Assembly: GCA_001600055.1 (NCBI GenBank)
Contig: BCIV01000002.1
Location: 66,287 to 130,286 of the forward strand
Source: Filobasidium wieringae
Lineage: Eukaryota > Basidiomycota > Tremellomycetes > Filobasidiales > Filobasidiaceae
DNA: 64,000 nt
Reading direction: 5' to 3'
Shown: positions 1,668 through 59,396 of the stretch, one piece after another
How the letters are laid out: every line of letters starts with the position of its first letter
Position numbering within the stretch: the stretch's first letter is position 1
The notes under the pieces: generated by a model
Databases searched by the model: none
Seen by the model: only the letters and a program-made list of their open reading frames with translations
Told to the model about the DNA's origin: nothing
Made by a program: the position numbers and the translations under genes

Positions 1668-2538
1668 GTTTGCTTTACGAATAGTGAAGTAGAGGTTAAA
1701 GGGAAGAGGCAGTTTCTTTGAAAACCTTTCCTGAGATGGTGGTATGGCGGATCACGAAACGACCGTGCGAGTAGATATACCTACTAAGAGTGTGGACTAG
1801 CTGAACAAACTAGTCAGGTAAACGGGGTTCTGCATAGCCTGTATAGCAAGCGAGTAGAGATATGTATTTATGGCGAATATTATGAAAGGGATGCTTCAAG
1901 GGGGATTGTTTCGACCGAACTGAAACACGCGCTTCGCAAGGCAAAGCTGTGTGTCTTAACGGCAAGGTCCATCCTTTCAAAACCTTTGAAGCCGTGATGT
2001 TCTCGCTTTGTGTAGCTGTAGAATCTTTCCGGTAAGCTAGAAAGAGAACGTTGCTGGTCCGAAAGAACATTGTTGACGCTGATCAACAAATGATCGAAGT
2101 CAAGGTGAAACACGTAGTCGCTCTGAAACATGGTGACACACAGAAGATGACAACGCATATTCACTATCGCCCCGATCGGCCTAAATCGGCCCGTATCGGC
2201 CATGCTGAACGCGTGAGAAAGCGGGAATGGCAGCGAAAAAAGCGATAGCGAGCGGATGTTGCTTCCTCGCGCGCGGGGACAGCAAGCCAGCGTATTTGTA
2301 CTCCAACACTCTCATTCCATTCAGACCGCTGTCCCTGATCCGACCCCTCCTCTCTCAAGATTCGGTTTACTGTCTCTCGTTAATCCTTTTAGGTGAAAAG
2401 CACTGGAAAAAGGAGTGAGTGGGCACTCTCTTTGGCTGGGCTCGTCTGGATGTCGAAACGGGGGAGATGAAGACGAGCCAGCGAGGTGGTCAGACGACAA
2501 CAAAGCTGACCTCGACTTGTTCCGATCTTTAGAGCAAA
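1668..2538. promoter_or_regulatory. Divergent intergenic region between the GH5 gene and the ADP/ATP carrier gene
   Basis: This region holds the promoters of two divergent genes. No convincing coding exon was seen. The notable element is three copies of ATCGGCC at 2175, 2185 and 2195, exactly 10 bp apart and in the same orientation, about 340 bp before the carrier start codon. Confidence 0.5.
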
Positions 2539-3896
2539 ATGGCCGCCGCTACTCAACCCCGTGATGTTGTCAAGAAGCCAAAGGACCTCAAGTCCTTCAC
2601 CAGTAAGTAGCCTTCATCGATTTCCCGTTGTTTCCATCAACTTATCATGTTTCCTCTTTTTTCCCGCAGTGTAAGCTATTTTATCTGCACGTCTGACAAG
2701 ACATGCCATCTCAACGTATCTTTCCGTTTCAGCGATTTCATGATGGGAGGTGTCTCTGCTGCTGTCGCCAAGACCGCCGCTGCCCCTATTGAGCGTATCA
2801 AGCTCTTGGTCCAGAACCAGGACGAGATGTATGTTTGACCCCTTTTTCTCCTCTCTGTCGATACCAACCGCTCACCTCCTGCTTTCCCTCGAACAGGATC
2901 AAGCAGGGACGTCTTGCTACCCCTTACAAGGGTATCTCTGACTGTTTCAAGAGGACTTACGCCGATGAGGGTCTCGTCTCCCTTTGGAGAGGAAACACCG
3001 CCAACGTCATCAGGTACTTCCCCACCCAGGCTTTGAACTTCGCTTTCAAGGACTACTTCAGTGAGTCGACCAAACTGGACGGGAACTTGATCCGAACTTC
3101 CAGCTGAACATCCCACACCCTCGCAGAGTCCATGTTCAACTTCAAGAAGTCCGACTCTTACGCCAAGTGGTTCGCTGGTAACATCGCTTCCGGTGGAGCT
3201 GCCGGTGCCTCTTCTTTGCTCTTTGTTTACTCTTTGGATTACGCTCGTACTCGATTGGCCAACGACAACAAGTCTGCCAAGAAGGGTGGATCTCGTCAGT
3301 TTAACGGATTGGTTGATGGTATGTCGTCTTCATCTTGTCCTGTTGGTGATCGGATCAGATCCCTGACGGGTTTGTCTCGCTTCTATAGTTTACAGGAAGA
3401 CCTTGGCTACCGACGGTATTGCTGGTCTTTACCGTGGTTTCGTTCCTTCCGTTGTTGGTATCATTGTCTACCGTGGTCTCTACTTCGGTCTTTGTGAGTA
3501 CAGCCCTGTCACGCCACACTTGGCCAAGCGATCTGACACCATCCCCGCACTGCAGACGACTCTTTGAAGCCCGCCGTTCTCCAGGGACCTCTTGAGGGAT
3601 CCTTCGCTGCCTCTTTCTTGCTCGGTTGGGGAGTTACCACCGGAGCCGGTCTCGCTTCTTACCCTCTCGACACCATCCGAAGGCGTATGATGATGACTTC
3701 CGGAGGTTCCGGTCCCCACTACAAGGGTATGGCCGATGCTGCTGGAAAGATCGTTGCCGCCGAGGGTGTCAAGTCCTTGTTCAAGGGAGCTGGTGCCAAC
3801 ATTCTCCGAGGAGTCGCCGGTGCCGGAGTCTTGTCCTTGTACGACAAGATGCAGGAGCTCATGTTCGGAAAGGTCTACTCTGGTGGATCCGGTTAA
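2539..3896 (+). CDS. AAC: Mitochondrial ADP/ATP carrier (adenine nucleotide translocase)
   Basis: Exchanges cytosolic ADP for matrix ATP across the mitochondrial inner membrane. The three mitochondrial-carrier repeats are present: [11 protein letters not shown] in repeat 1 (PxD/E-x-x-K/R signature), [14 protein letters not shown] in repeat 2 and [16 protein letters not shown] in repeat 3; RRRMMM is the family-specific ADP/ATP carrier signature. Exons: 2539-2602, 2670, 2733-2828, 2897-3060, 3127-3318, 3389-3493 and 3556-3896. They sum to 963 nt, giving a 320-residue protein, the usual length for fungal AACs. The second exon is a single T, needed to make the Ile codon of FTIDFMMGG. All introns are GT-AG. 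It is convergent with MTG1 downstream. Identification is secure; the one-base exon is the odd part. Confidence 0.96.
2670..2670 (+). other. AAC: One-nucleotide exon of the ADP/ATP carrier gene
   Basis: Intron 1 (2603-2669) begins GTAAGTAG and ends CCCGCAG. A single T follows, then intron 2 (2671-2732) begins GTAAGC, contains CTGAC (about 2693-2697) and ends TTTCAG. Exon 1 ends ACC A and exon 3 begins C GAT TTC ATG, so A+T+C makes Ile and keeps the DFMMGG frame. Joining exon 1 straight to exon 3 hits TGA after four codons, and retaining intron 2 gives ATG TAA. Confidence 0.85.
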
Positions 3897-6769: not shown

Positions 6770-9700
6770 ATGGACGAAGCACCGGCGGCTGAGCCGGATT
6801 TCACTCAAATACCACTACTGGAAAGATGTGTAGATAAAGTGCGTCCGTTTCGCTGCAATACAGAGTTCTTCGACGCTCCTGCTGATTATACGGTTATCTG
6901 ACGATCTACAGAACTGGAAAGCTCGTGTATCAGCCTACACAGATCTCGTTGTCAAGTTCTCAAAAACCTCAGGAGATGACGACCCATTCTTCCGACCGTA
7001 CCTGAACGGAGACCTACTCAAGAAGTGGGCTGTGGATACAAATGCTGCTGCTCAAGAGAAAGGTCTGGAAGCATTAGGAGGTTTGATCAAGGATAGCGGA
7101 GAAAATAGTGCTCGGTAAGTCTCCCTTTGCCTCCTGAGATGCCGCCTTAACCCCTTCCTCAACCACACGATGAACATCTTAGGACACGGCTAGAAGTACT
7201 CCCTTCTATAGTGGATAAGTGCTTCATCTCGATGCGAGCGGGAACGAAAGCGAAAGCTATTGAGGTTGCCTTGCTCTACGTCGAGGTAGAGAATGGCGGA
7301 GAAGGCGTGGTCGTAAGTAGGGTCTCAGGGTGGTTTTAGGTATATTATCATTGACACATATCTATAGAACGATGTGATAAAAGGATTGGACGCTAAACAA
7401 CCGAAATTAGTGGCCACTACCGTTGTCTGTCTCAGAGAGCTGGTCAAGTGAGCGTTCAAGAAGTTGCTGCTTCTGGTCTCACTCGCTGACTATTCTCCGA
7501 GCATTACAGCAACTTTGGAGTAAAACCACTAGGAGACGTCAAGTTACTGATCAACTCGGTCATAAAAGCGTTCAACCATAATGACAAGGCCGTACGATCA
7601 GAGGTACACATACTACGGGTGTTGAGACTGTTTGAACGCGGACTTATGATATGCTCTCTAGGGTACACTTCTCGCTCAAGCATTATACCGATACCTAGGG
7701 GACGCCCTAGTCAATTTCTTGGCGGATCTAAAGCCTGTTCAGCTTAAGGAATTGGGCGAGGGGTTCGCAGCTCTCGATGCAGCCGGAGAGGGAAAGGGAA
7801 CTGGGAAAGCAACCAGGTTTACGAGGAAGGCACAGCGAGAGCGAGAATCGGCTGGTAATGATCAAGCTGCGGCGGCACAGGAAGGTTGGTCCTGAATTCG
7901 TTGTTCACCTTTGTATGCACTTGACTGATTAATGTCTTGACGACCTATAGAACCGGAAGAGACGAATCTTGCGGATCTGCTGGAAGCAGAAGATATTCTC
8001 CCATTATGGCCCGCGAACTTTCACGAAGCGATAGGATCGCCGAAATGGAAAGACAAAGTCGAGCTATTAGCGGAATGCCAGAAGATCCTGGAAAAGACTC
8101 CTAAAATCAAGGATAACCCAGCTTTGGGCGAGATCGCTTCTGCTCTGGGCAAGAGGATGACAGATACCAATGTGAACGTTGTCAGTTCTGCTGCAGGAGT
8201 AATAGCAGCCTTGGCTGCACAGATAGAGGGTAAGGGTTTCGGTAAACATAAAGCTAGTGTGGTACCCCCTATTCTCGATCGATTAAAGGAGAAGAAGACG
8301 GCCGACGCGCTAGGTAAAGCTTTGGATGCGGTCTTCTTAACGGTAAGAACTTTCCGGGACTTCATATTTAGGAACGAGTCACTGACCTGGTGCCGGTATT
8401 CTAGGTCAATTTTGCCGACATCCGAGATGACTGCGTTGCTGCATTGCAGAATAAGAATCCCATGGTCAGACAAGGCACTTTATCTTTCTTGGCTCGATCG
8501 CTACAGACCAGTAGACAAGCACCAACGAAAGCCGACCTCGATGTTCTGGCCCCTGCAATGGTGGGGCAGCTAGGCGACTCGCAAGAACCGATCAGGAGCG
8601 CTGCCGCAGACGGGGTAGGCACATTCTTGAACATCTTTGGGGAACGGCCTATGAACGCATACCTTGAAAACGTTTCTCCACCTCACATGGCGAAAGTCAA
8701 GGAAGCGAGCGAGAAGGTTACGGTCCAAAGCAAAATGACCAAAGCTGCTCCACCCGCTGCTAAACCTAAAAGAGAACCGGTAGCACCTCCTAAACCCGAG
8801 GGCCCAAAAATCCCAGCTCGATTAGCAGCAAGGTTTGGAGCAGCGAAAACGGCAGCGGCAGAACCTAAATCAGATGAACTACCAGAGGCACTGCCAGAAA
8901 AACCAGCACCAAGACCCGCTTCCGTCGCATCAGCAGCTGCATCTCAGGCTGCCTCAGCGCCGTCGCCTGATATTCCGGATGAATCTGCATTCGCTCCGGT
9001 AAAGAAGCCAGCGGGTATGCCTGCAAGGTTGATGGCTCGAGCTGCTCCCGTGAGTGGTGAAAGATCGTACCTGGCAGACGCGCGAGCTCTACTGACAACA
9101 CCGACAATACATAGGCTGCAAAGAAACCCACACCTCCAGCGCCCAAACCAGCTGCGTCTAAAGGTGTAGGATCAAAACCTGCGGGTCCTTCAGCACCAGC
9201 ATCGTTTGAAATCAAATATCGCTACAGTCCCGAAGACGCCGAGGCAAAGGCATTGGAAGTCATACCATCAGACATCCAAGCGGGGCTAGCTGATTCTCAA
9301 TGGAAGGAGAGATTAGCCTCCGCAGAAAGGCTTCAAGAGTGGGTTACCACTGGTGAAGGAGCCGCTCAAGAAAGCGAGGTACTGTTCCGGTTCATGGGCA
9401 AGACTCCGGGGTGGAATGAGAAGAATTTCCAGGTGAGTCACCAGTGTATCTGACGTTTACGTGAGCTTTTCTAAAACAATGAGTGACAGGTTTCAAGTAA
9501 GATCTTCGCGACGATGAGCGCTATCGCTAGCAGCTCTGGTTCTTTCGGGAAATCTTCGGCTGCACAGGCAATCGGGCCATTAACGGACAAGTTGGGAGAT
9601 CTGAAGTTAAAAAAGCCAGCAGGGGATGCGCTGATCGTATTTGCCGAAAAGACTTCGCTTGGATTCGTGCTCTCGCAAGGTGAGACCAGCGCCTGCCACA

Positions 9701-40143: not shown

Positions 40144-42257
40144 CTAGTTACTGAACAACAATCGGTAGATCCTGATGTAAAGGGGAGCGGCCTTTCGTTC
40201 GGCCCTCCAGATCCTCATTTCCTCGACGGTGAGGAAAGATTTTCGACCGGAATCGATATCGATCTCGTGAGCTCGGTAAGGTCGGGTCCTCTTCCAGAAG
40301 AATCCGACAGCGTAGAAGATGATGACGATAGGCAGAGCGAGCCAGACCTCTGAAAAGGAGCACAAACGAAATAACCGGTCAGTCGCCCGGTCGAACGAAA
40401 AGGGATCGGTATGCATGCGGTACTCACGGAAGAACCCGATGACACGTTCATTGACGGACAACTCCTTGAACCCGATGGGCCAAACGGCGACGTAAAACTG
40501 AGCGACGAGCACCAAAGCGAGCAACCCGAATCCGAACCAAGAACCGTAGACACCTCCAGCAGCGCGGAAAGGAAGTTCCTCGACAGAGTGTCCCTGAACC
40601 TTCCAAGCCCTTCGGAATCGGATATGACACAGACAGATGCTCATCCAGGTGAAGATTGTAGAAAGACCGGAGAGGGCGATCAACCAGTTGAACACCTGTC
40701 CACCGACCGAGGCGACGTTGACATAGGCGATAGGGCCGAACGCCAAAATGGCAATGACGGACCAAAGAGGTCGTCCAGACTTGTCGACGTAGGTGAAGAA
40801 CCTGGGAGCGTACCCGGTCTCCGCCAAGGCGGTAAGGGTACGGGAACCGGCGTAGACACAAGAGAGACCGATGGAGAGGACGGAAATACAGATGGTAGCG
40901 TTGACGAGATGATCCAGACCCTTCACGTTGGCATAGTTGAAAGCCAGGACGAAGGGGGAAGCGGCAGCGTCGTAGGAAGAAGTACCACTCAACAACCTCT
41001 CATCGTTGTAAGGGATCAACAACCCGATCAAAGTCAAGGAAGTGATGTAGATCAAAGTGATACGCCAGAAAGTGTTCTTGACCGCACTTGGCATGGTCTT
41101 CCTTGGGTTAGGAGTCTCGGAAGCGGCCAATCCGACCAACTCGGTTCCGGCGAAAGAGAAAGCGGCGGTGACGAATACCGAACAGACTCCCTTGAATCCG
41201 TTACCGAAAGCGCCAGGATCGCTGTAGTATCGTCCTCCAACGTACGAGTCGTATCGACTTCCGGAAGGTCCTCCTCCACAGACGAAGACGATACCGGAGA
41301 TGACGAAGATGACGGTGACGAGGAGTTTCAAGCATGATGACCAGACTAGAGAAGCAAGGCGGGGTGGATGAGTACGATTGACGTGTTAGCGTTTGATAGA
41401 TGCTCATCACTCACACTCTTCCTCGGCGTAACCGAGAGTACCAAAGATGTTCACGGCGACAATAGCGAGGAAAAAGACAGTGATCCAAACGGCGACATTG
41501 ACGCTCGTCGTCCAATACTGCAACGTGATGGCCGCGGCGGTGATTTCGAGAGGTAGAACGGCAGCCCATTGAAAAACGTAATTCCAACCCATGGCGAAAC
41601 CCCAAGAAGGGTCCAAGAAACGAACGGCAAGAGTATAGAAACCACCAGAAACGGGATAGACGATGGCCATTTCACCCAAAGCCTGAGTGACGTTGATCAA
41701 CATGATTCCCATTCTGAAACATCACCAGAAAAGGACGTCTCTGATCAGTGGGCCGCTTTGGAACGTTAGCGCGCGTAAAAGGACTCACAAGATCCAAGCG
41801 ATGAGGATCCCCCCCGGTCCTCCAGTCGCCAACGCGCTACCCGAACCGATAAAGAGACCCGTCCCGATCGACCCACCGACCGCGATCATCTGTAAATGAC
41901 GAGGTTTCATGGATTGCTGAAGCATGGGCGAGTCTTCCAGTCGAGCCTGCATGACCGCTGGATCATCGTCGTTTCCTCCGGCGATAAATTGACCTCTGAT
42001 CGTATGAATCGCAGTGGCATGAGTACGTGACAGGGCGACGGGTATCACACGACCATTACTCACCCGGTACGACCTGGAGCTCGTTTGTAACTCTCAAAGT
42101 TCAGACCAGCTCGGGTCCAGAAAGATTCTTTAGACGGATCATAGTTTTCCGTTCGCTCGATGTTGTAGTCCTTTTCGGTGGTGGGGGCGACGATGGCGGC
42201 ATCGTCGTTGGCATAATAATGACCGTCCTTCTCGGCCTTGTCGAACTTTGTCGACAT
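40144..42257 (-). CDS. General amino-acid permease (APC superfamily, YAT family, Gap1-like)
   Basis: Proton-coupled amino-acid importer of the plasma membrane with 12 predicted transmembrane helices. The cytosolic N-terminus ([19 protein letters not shown]) is Lys- and Asp-rich, as in endocytosed permeases. TM1 begins [21 protein letters not shown] (the substrate-binding GSIGTG bend). Other family segments: [45 protein letters not shown] (consensus amphipathic loop), [13 protein letters not shown], and [21 protein letters not shown]. It ends with [11 protein letters not shown]. Introns lie near 41346-41414, 41713-41788, 41994-42062 and 40355-40425. Substrate range cannot be told from sequence. 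Confidence 0.92.
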
Positions 42258-56974: not shown

Positions 56975-59396
56975 TCAGTCCACATGTCCTCCCATCTGAC
57001 GGATCACATCATCTACGACACTCACGACAGGCTGATGAAGCGCATGACCGGCGGGGATCATGGGGAACACGTGTTCCCCCTTGTCGACCCAACATTCGAG
57101 CAGGACGGGTCTACTCCCATCATACTCCAAAAACTCCTTCATCTTCGCCGGCAAGTCCTCGAGCTTCTCGCATCGCATCCCCTTGACGTTCATCGATTCG
57201 GCCAGTTTCACGAAATCGGGGTTCGTCATCTGGGTATGGGAGTAACGTTTCTCGTAGAACAGGTCTGTCGAGTGGAGGGGAGGGACGAAAAGAGGGGTCA
57301 GCTGGGACGCTCCCGGCGGACCGATCACGCTCGCTCACCTTGCCATTGCAAGACCATCCCCTGAAACTCGTTGTTCAGTACCAAGATCTTACATCCAATG
57401 TTGTACTGCGCGGCGGTGGCCATCTCCATGGCGGTCATGGAGAAACTGGCGTCCCCGTCGATATCGACGACGACCTTTTCGGGCGCGGCGACCTTTGCCC
57501 CGATGGCCGAGGGTAGACCGTACCCCATCGTGCCCAACCCTCCGGAAGAGACCCAGGACCGAGGTTGAGTCCATCGGTAATGTTGACAGGCCCACATCTG
57601 ATGCTGTCCCACCCCGGTCGTGACGATCACGTTCTCCTTCCCGATCGCTTCACACTGACGATCCAACTCCTCCACGACCTCCTGAGGTTTCATCCTCGCC
57701 CCCGGTTCAGAGGGCGTGAAGGTGAACGGGTAATTCTCCTTCCATCCCTTGACCTTGCCCATCCATTCCTTCCTCTCCCTAAACTCGATCTGCGGCAAAA
57801 GTTCGCCCATGGAGGCGACGACGTCACCTAGGACGGGGATGTTGGCCTGGACGACCTTGTTGATGTTCTTGGGTTGGATCTCGAAATGGATGATCCCTCC
57901 CTTTCCTTCCAACGCGGCCGCTCGGGCACTGGGAGCGAACCCCTTGACCGTCCCCGTCACTCGATCGTCGAATCGAGCTCCGAGGGCGATAATCACGTCG
58001 GCCTCCTGCATCGCGAAATTGGCATAAGCAGACCCGTGCATTCCCAACATGTGTAGACTCTTCTCGTCGTGCTCATTAAAGGCTCCTAATCCTTGAAGCG
58101 TGGTGGTCACGGGGATGTTCCCGTTGGCCGAGATCTGAGCGAGCAGTTGAGGTCCTTCGGGGGAAGACAAGATCCCCGCTCCGGCATAGATGACGGGTTG
58201 TTTAGCCCCGTTGATCATCCTCGCGGCGGCTTCGATCAGTTCGGAATCCCCCGCCTGAGGCGCTCGTTTCTCCTCCATCGATGATCCAGGGACCCTCGGG
58301 TTGCTAGGTAGATAAGGAGAGACTCCGGGGAGTACGGACTTCTTGGGGATCGGTTGGCGGAGGATGGCAGCGGTCACGTCCTTAGGAAGATCGACGAGGA
58401 CGGGTCCGGGTCTTCCACTGGTGGCGATCTTGAAAGCCTCGTTGATCCGTCGAGGCAGTTCCGCGATATCCTTGACCATGACGTTCCACTTTGTACAACT
58501 CCTCGAGATACCTACCATATCCGCCTCCTGAAACGCGTCGCTCCCGATCGCACTGGTCGCGACTTGTCCACAGAAGACGACCATGGGGATCCCATCCGAG
58601 AGAGCGTCCTGCATGGGGGTGATCACGTTGGTAGCACCCGGTCCGGAAGTGACGAGGACGATCCCGGGTTTACCGGTTATTCGGGCGTACCCTTCGGCCA
58701 TATGACCGGCTCCTTGTTCGTGTCGAGGAAGGATGAAATCGAAATGGGGGGAATTGTAAATGGCGTCAAAGACGGGTAAGATGGCTCCCTAGGATCGTAT
58801 CATCGAGTTTCCCCCCGCACGTCAGCCCGAGTGATTCAGAGGCTAGCACCGTTCGAACGACGTGAAGACTCACACCGGGGTATCCGAAAACATGCTTGAC
58901 ATCGTGCCTGAGCATCATCTCATGGAAGATCTGACCACCACTCTGACCGACAAACGTGTAATCGAGTCCGTCGTCCGTTGCGGAACCCGAGCGCGTTCGG
59001 AGCGGGTCGACGTAGGGGAGTTGACCTGGCGCTGGGTTTGAGGGCTGGAAGGATGGGGCTGGGGTCGGTCGGCTGGTGCGTACAGCGTGTAGAGAAGGAG
59101 GTCGATATGAAGATTAAAGATGATGTATGGAAGGATCAGAATCGACCCATTCTATTCCTCGATTCAAGACCACCGCCGACTCACGCAACACCAGCCACCG
59201 CACCGGTCTGAGCACTGGTTTGGATCCTCCGAGCATGTTCCCTGACCCTAGCCTTGGCTTCAAAGTTGATGACGTTGTTCTCGACCTGGGTGGATTTCGA
59301 TCGTCTTGCCCCGGCGATGGAAGTGCATGGGGAGAGGGTGCTTGTGGAGGGTGATGGGGTGGTACGTAGGAACGTACGGGCGTGTCTCGATAGCAT
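56975..59396 (-). CDS. ILV2: Acetolactate synthase catalytic subunit, mitochondrial
   Basis: First common enzyme of valine, leucine and isoleucine synthesis; ThDP-, FAD- and Mg-dependent. The start at 59396 (MLSRHARTFLRTTPSPSTST) is a classic Arg/Ser/Thr matrix presequence. Conserved blocks: DYTFVGQSGGQIFHEMM, VFGYPGGAILPVFDAI, ILPRHEQGAGHMAEGYAR (catalytic Glu), GIVLVTSGPGATNVITPMQDA, PVLVDLPKDV, ALGARFDDRVTG, ThDP site GDASFSMTAMEMATAAQYNI with NNEFQGMVLQWQ, and the C-terminal LECWVDKGEHVFPMIP. Five exons join in frame; the intron after GVA (starting about 59208) separates presequence from enzyme. The protein ends QMGGHVD. It is divergent from the m-AAA protease gene. Confidence 0.96.

Follow-up and report, generated by a model that had tools for sequence, protein, structure and literature searches.

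Nuclear exons of a single nucleotide have been published for APC11 (PMC4674806) and VPS55 (PMC8831610) of plants and for CYP621A (PMC12940212) of Fusarium, and organellar ones for placozoan cox1 (PMC5436844) and fungal mitochondrial rnl (PMC12308204). Nelson and Syed 2026 call CYP621A the second reported case (PMC12940212), apparently with VPS55 uncounted. In the openly licensed literature searched, no one-base exon was found in an ADP/ATP carrier or in a basidiomycete nuclear gene. The ADP/ATP carrier (AAC) gene of Filobasidium wieringae described here would, if its lone T at position 2670 (T2670) is a real exon, be the fourth nameable nuclear gene with this rare arrangement, the kind being already published. 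The initial annotation of this DNA had named Arabidopsis APC11 as a known case; APC11 is indeed published, but VPS55 (PMC8831610) and CYP621A (PMC12940212) have to be added to it.

Like AAC, CYP621A is a fungal nuclear gene in which one base forms the middle position of a codon within a conserved motif, and two short introns (139 nt together in CYP621A) adjoin there, the first in phase 1 and the second in phase 2 (PMC12940212). The base itself is G (AG-G-GT) in CYP621A and T in AAC, and the former gene encodes an ascomycete P450 whereas the latter encodes a basidiomycete carrier. The Fusarium exon is documented by 20 orthologues and by RNA reads, whereas the AAC exon is predicted from the sequence of one genome.

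Arabidopsis APC11 (Guo and Liu 2015, PMC4674806) likewise has a base needed for the frame between two complete introns, for which its authors propose intron definition together with recursive splicing. It differs in being a plant gene with a 422-nt interval and in having been proven by cDNA and by mutant constructs in protoplasts. The 1-nt microexon of plant VPS55 (PMC8831610) is also nuclear and followed by a strong donor (GTRAGT in VPS55, GTAAGC in AAC); it has been observed in RNA and is conserved throughout the land plants, with present and absent forms in some lineages. Fungal stwintrons (PMC6616335, PMC12403724) share with AAC the occurrence of two introns at one place and their consecutive excision, but in the examples described one intron interrupts the splice site of the other, whereas AAC has two complete introns separated by an exon base.

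We assign a probability of roughly 0.87 to T2670 being a genuine exon of one nucleotide in a functional nuclear gene for the ADP/ATP carrier. Support for this arrangement, proposed in the initial annotation, is good and comes from the conservation of the protein, the splice signals and the controls for chance, from which we infer that the cell uses this splice pattern.

Structure of the gene

The window is the whole stretch of 64,000 nucleotides that was analysed, from a genome of 33 contigs and 19.76 Mb. The features of the AAC gene are collected in Table 1. In the gene model the seven exons total 963 nt, corresponding to 320 residues and the stop, and the six introns are all GT-AG and 62-70 nt long. 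These totals and the Ile of FTIDFMMGG formed by A+T+C confirm what had been annotated, and the boundaries (2603-2669, T2670 and 2671-2732) agree exactly. At 2665-2676 the DNA reads CGCAG-T-GTAAGC, with one base between the AG and the GT of two complete introns, and the joint predicted with the one-base exon is ...TTCACC-ATC-GATTTC....

Table 1. Positions in the window of the AAC gene, its exons and introns, and an alternative donor
Feature	Position	Strand	Description	Basis
AAC gene, coding part	2539..3896	+	ATG to stop, 7 exons, 320 residues	gene model; three PF00153 stretches; matches to solved AAC structures
Exon 1	2539..2602	+	64 nt, 3' end ...TTC ACC A	gene model
Intron 1	2603..2669	+	67 nt, GTAAGT...CGCAG, phase 1	gene model, splice-signal scoring
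Exon 2 (candidate one-base exon)	2670..2670	+	lone T, middle base of ATC (Ile 22)	gene model, splice signals, homologue conservation
Intron 2	2671..2732	+	62 nt, GTAAGC...TTCAG, phase 2, CTGAC branch-like site	gene model, splice-signal scoring
Exon 3	2733..2828	+	96 nt, 5' start C GAT TTC ATG ATG GGA	gene model
Intron 3	2829..2896	+	68 nt	gene model, spliced aligner
Exon 4	2897..3060	+	164 nt	gene model
Intron 4	3061..3126	+	66 nt	gene model, spliced aligner
Exon 5	3127..3318	+	192 nt	gene model
Intron 5	3319..3388	+	70 nt	gene model, spliced aligner
Exon 6	3389..3493	+	105 nt	gene model
Intron 6	3494..3555	+	62 nt	gene model, spliced aligner
Exon 7	3556..3896	+	341 nt including the stop	gene model
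Poor donor of the alternative single intron 2607-2732	2607..2612	+	GTAGCC	spliced aligner, splice-matrix score

The translated protein matched PF00153 (Mito_carr) with 227.4 bits in three stretches, corresponding to the three repeats, and also matched the solved AAC structures 6gci, 4c9g, 4c9j and 1okc. It contains RRRMMM, which we take to be the signature of the ADP/ATP carrier family. On this sequence evidence the gene product is an ADP/ATP carrier, the protein exporting ATP from mitochondria, the exchange of ADP for ATP being assigned by homology only. Upstream of the coding part, a possible 118-nt intron in the 5' UTR (window 2415-2532, forward strand, GTGAGT...TCTTTAG), noticed by eye, ends just before GCAAAATGG.

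Reading frame and conservation of the joint

The final A of exon 1, T2670 and the initial C of exon 3 make ATC, which encodes the Ile in SFTIDFMMGG, a string close to where the first carrier repeat begins. Skipping of T2670 gives ...SFTTIS and a stop after three more residues, and retention of intron 2 gives ...SFTM and a stop after one; that the protein is truncated in both cases had been correctly foreseen. Retention of intron 1 leads to ...SFTSK and a stop after two more residues.

The homologues were counted among 120 listed, from 7,999 scored. The stretch SFTIDFMMGG was found in 16 of the 120 and Ile at the position of the T2670 codon in 48, and the spacing F..[DN]F.MGG was kept in 117, a spacing one residue longer occurring in none. 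The remaining three (P0080, P0082 and P0110) are without this stretch or without the sequence preceding it. The closest named relatives of the protein among those listed are mostly fungi such as Naganishia and Kwoniella, presumably Tremellomycetes. The nearest homologue over the full length among the matches listed is P0002 (93%), whose sequence is probably derived from RNA because its 1,133-base source holds a frame of 321 residues. No related carrier locus was found in the viral and prokaryotic sequence collections.

The claim that the base is required stands for the conserved product and fails for an open frame as such, because a single intron of 126 nt at 2607-2732, overlooked in the initial annotation, also gives an in-frame protein, of 321 residues. 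If this intron were spliced, its donor GT at 2607 would lie inside GTAAGTAG, the predicted joint in the mRNA would be ...ACCAGTAAC-GATTTC and the protein would read SFT-SN-DFMMGG (SFTSNDFMMGG), with one extra residue, the inner CAG-T-GTAAG being coincidental. Such an intron is GT-AG, in frame and open to the stop, and the Mito_carr score of its product is 226.4 bits against 227.4 for the form with the one-base exon; it would, however, insert a residue into the spacing kept in all 117 homologues that have the stretch, and it is in this sense that T2670 is needed for the conserved product.

The two forms were also separated by the cost given to an intron. At a flat intron cost of 8 the spliced aligner chose the one-base exon; when the flat cost was 15 or 20 it chose the 126-nt intron, whichever of two query proteins was used, a pitfall for annotation in which a residue is inserted into the carrier. 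When splice signals were given our own weighting, the near relatives P0002 and P0006 picked the one-base exon at all three costs. Among more distant queries, P0010 gave the one-base exon at the lowest of the three costs only and 2607-2732 at the two higher ones, P0048 took 2603-2732 together with a start that is out of frame with the gene model, and P0083 placed an intron nowhere at the joint.

Splice signals

Splice matrices were obtained from 119 seed introns in 239 kb of the same genome, the AAC gene being left out, with a GTRNGY donor, a YAG acceptor, a length of 50-80 nt and coding flanks. An earlier coding-score threshold for the seeds had passed 3 introns only, and matrices re-trained in rounds drifted, so that the set without re-training was used. 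An intron scan allowing 40-129 nt at a threshold of 2 gave 178 introns in the real sequence, with a peak at 58-75 nt, and 29 in shuffled sequence, without that peak.

On these matrices, which the choice of seeds by GTRNGY/YAG biases toward the donors of introns 1 and 2, the total splice signal of intron 1 lies at the 46th percentile of the seed introns and that of intron 2 at the 71st. Intron 1 is without a perfect CTRAY, its best branch-like site being CTTAT; a perfect CTRAY is present in 56 of the 119 seed introns and missing in the other 63. Among 77 in-frame two-intron solutions with a middle exon of 1-40 nt, the one using T2670 was the best with 41.6 bits, the second (28.5 bits) used the same T with a very poor first donor, and the best in which the middle exon was not one base reached 7.3 bits.

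The donor of the 126-nt intron, GTAGCC, scored -2.9 bits against 9.5 for the GTAAGT four bases upstream, that is 12.4 bits lower. An Rfam U1 search gave no match in this genome or in the control genomes, and an assumed 5' end of U1 was therefore used to calculate pairing, which was -4.0 for the donor at 2607, weaker than the -7.2 of the donor at 2603. The donor at 2607 lacks a G at +5, a base that 23 of the 24 donors found with both of the query proteins possess, and at 126 nt the intron would be longer than all those of this set (53-112 nt). The set leaves out introns near the ends of ILV2 and AFG3 placed by one query only, and also AAC2 1167-1209 (donor GTGCAT, no G at +5), which was placed by both queries and dismissed as an artefact of linear gap costing; if it is counted, G at +5 occurs in 23 of 25. 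The AFG3 donor 737 was counted though its acceptor varies between queries (53 or 67 nt), and the AAC2 introns flanking a 12-nt exon were placed by one query at an intron cost of 9 and by both at a cost of 5.

Chance controls and further candidates

The 130-nt interval was subjected to 20,000 dinucleotide shuffles in which six end bases were kept on each side. Bare AG-N-GT appeared in 7.8% of the shuffles, YAG-N-GTRNGY so placed that both introns would be usable in 0.12%, and the same motif equally strong on both splice matrices in 0.015%. From the rates in the 239 kb, both strands, the numbers expected per 40 positions were 0.0027 for YAG-N-GTRNGY and 0.0003 for an equally strong one. An origin of the arrangement at T2670 by chance is thus unlikely.

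The single intron 2607-2732 leaves the inner motif (0.12% of shuffles) without explanation and, its poor donor, its length and the altered spacing being taken together with its open frame, we regard it as very unlikely. The same coincidence of an internal acceptor and donor, at the same frequency in the shuffles, would have to be accepted if the assembly were one base short or one base long near the joint, the true gene having one 130-nt intron, 2603-2732. An extra base in exon 1 or in exon 3 would indeed mend the frame; against such an error, 130 nt is above the 53-112 nt of the 24 compared introns and the remaining AAC exons are intact, which makes it highly improbable.

A scan for one-base exons in 239 kb of the 19.76 Mb, both strands, gave 39 AG-N-GT sites above the splice thresholds, of which four had an open joined frame, T2670 ranking first with 57.9. 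The second-ranked candidate (46.6; locus L031, minus strand, about 7333-7454) was rejected as a false positive because its supposed first intron, as judged by eye, is a 57-nt stretch of the open coding sequence in a transporter-like gene; it is a warning for automatic searches for one-base exons. The third and fourth open-frame sites (29.0 and 28.1) had little coding support.

Order of splicing

The need for adjacent introns to be removed in turn recalls the fungal stwintrons (PMC6616335, PMC12403724). Were the AAC joint such a nested twin intron, a splice site of one intron would be split by the other, and no T would remain in the mature mRNA. Both AAC introns are complete and canonical, and in neither is the donor or acceptor broken by the other intron. 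Ten nested combinations were listed in which an inner GT-AG intron, 40 nt or longer, divides the GT of a donor or the AG of an acceptor; two were in frame and none of the ten kept DFMMGG, so that a stwintron at this place has a negligible probability.

With T2670 as an exon between two complete introns, the manner of their removal may be considered. With AG and GT one base apart, the factors that recognise the 3' splice site would overlap with U1 bound to the donor that follows. Exon definition across T2670 is very unlikely because of this overlap, and the intron 1 acceptor could not plausibly be occupied at the same time as the intron 2 donor; being one base apart, the two sites would require the introns to be removed one after the other. 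Each intron would probably be recognised across its own length, by intron definition, and the two would then be excised in turn; the initial annotation, which proposed intron definition or stepwise (recursive) splicing, was reasonable in this.

Either order leaves a usable site, CAT/GTAAGC when intron 1 goes first and CGCAG/TCGATT when intron 2 does. The matrix score of the second donor rises from 7.0 to 7.9 on removal of intron 1, whereas its U1 pairing (with the assumed 5' end) changes from -5.3 to -4.4; the two measures disagree on whether the donor gains, and neither fixes the order. For the 9-nt exon of potato invertase, the second intron is removed first, as cited by Guo and Liu (PMC4674806).

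Origin of the joint and a paralogue

The likeness between introns 1 and 2 gave p = 0.148, which leaves a tandem duplication unsupported; the lowest value of the 15 AAC intron pairs was p = 0.035, for introns 1 and 5. In a genome search that skipped very common words, neither intron had a copy elsewhere, each matching only itself, and an origin from a repeated intron was likewise unsupported. Nelson and Syed suggest that a one-base exon can rescue the frame after loss of a base at a joint in a conserved motif (PMC12940212), and such a frame rescue could apply to the AAC joint.

A divergent ADP/ATP carrier paralogue lies on contig 20 (L017, G000:C20:121000-124500) at about 955-2617 and has at least 12 introns, among them a GC-AG intron at 2022-2096; it is seemingly without a stretch matching NQDEMIKQG. 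Its intron nearest to the one-base joint of AAC is three codons further on. A 12-nt exon at 2097-2108 was placed in it by the aligner, and a 19-nt exon at 1085-1103 is probable by eye; because of these two, tiny exons seem to be tolerated in this lineage.

Elsewhere in the window, an acetolactate synthase exon at 57325-58701 (minus strand) encodes a protein 100% identical to P0121, from a 20,834-base JGI contig. Because of this identity the same or a very near species appears to be present in an environmental data set, which might also hold the carrier locus. Two long open frames overlap on opposite strands at 40144-41331 (minus) and 40411-41337 (plus); by eye the former resembles an amino-acid permease, and the latter is probably spurious.

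Significance

It may be speculated that the AAC joint is an obligate two-step (recursive) site. Since a fault in either step leads to a premature stop, carrier output would then be set, by way of nonsense-mediated decay, by how fast or how accurately the second step proceeds, and the one-base exon would be a control point for the export of mitochondrial ATP, a role that we consider distinctly unlikely. If T2670 is a true exon, this housekeeping gene, in a fungus whose introns are short, would be a tractable one for measuring in what order and how faithfully splicing proceeds around such an exon.
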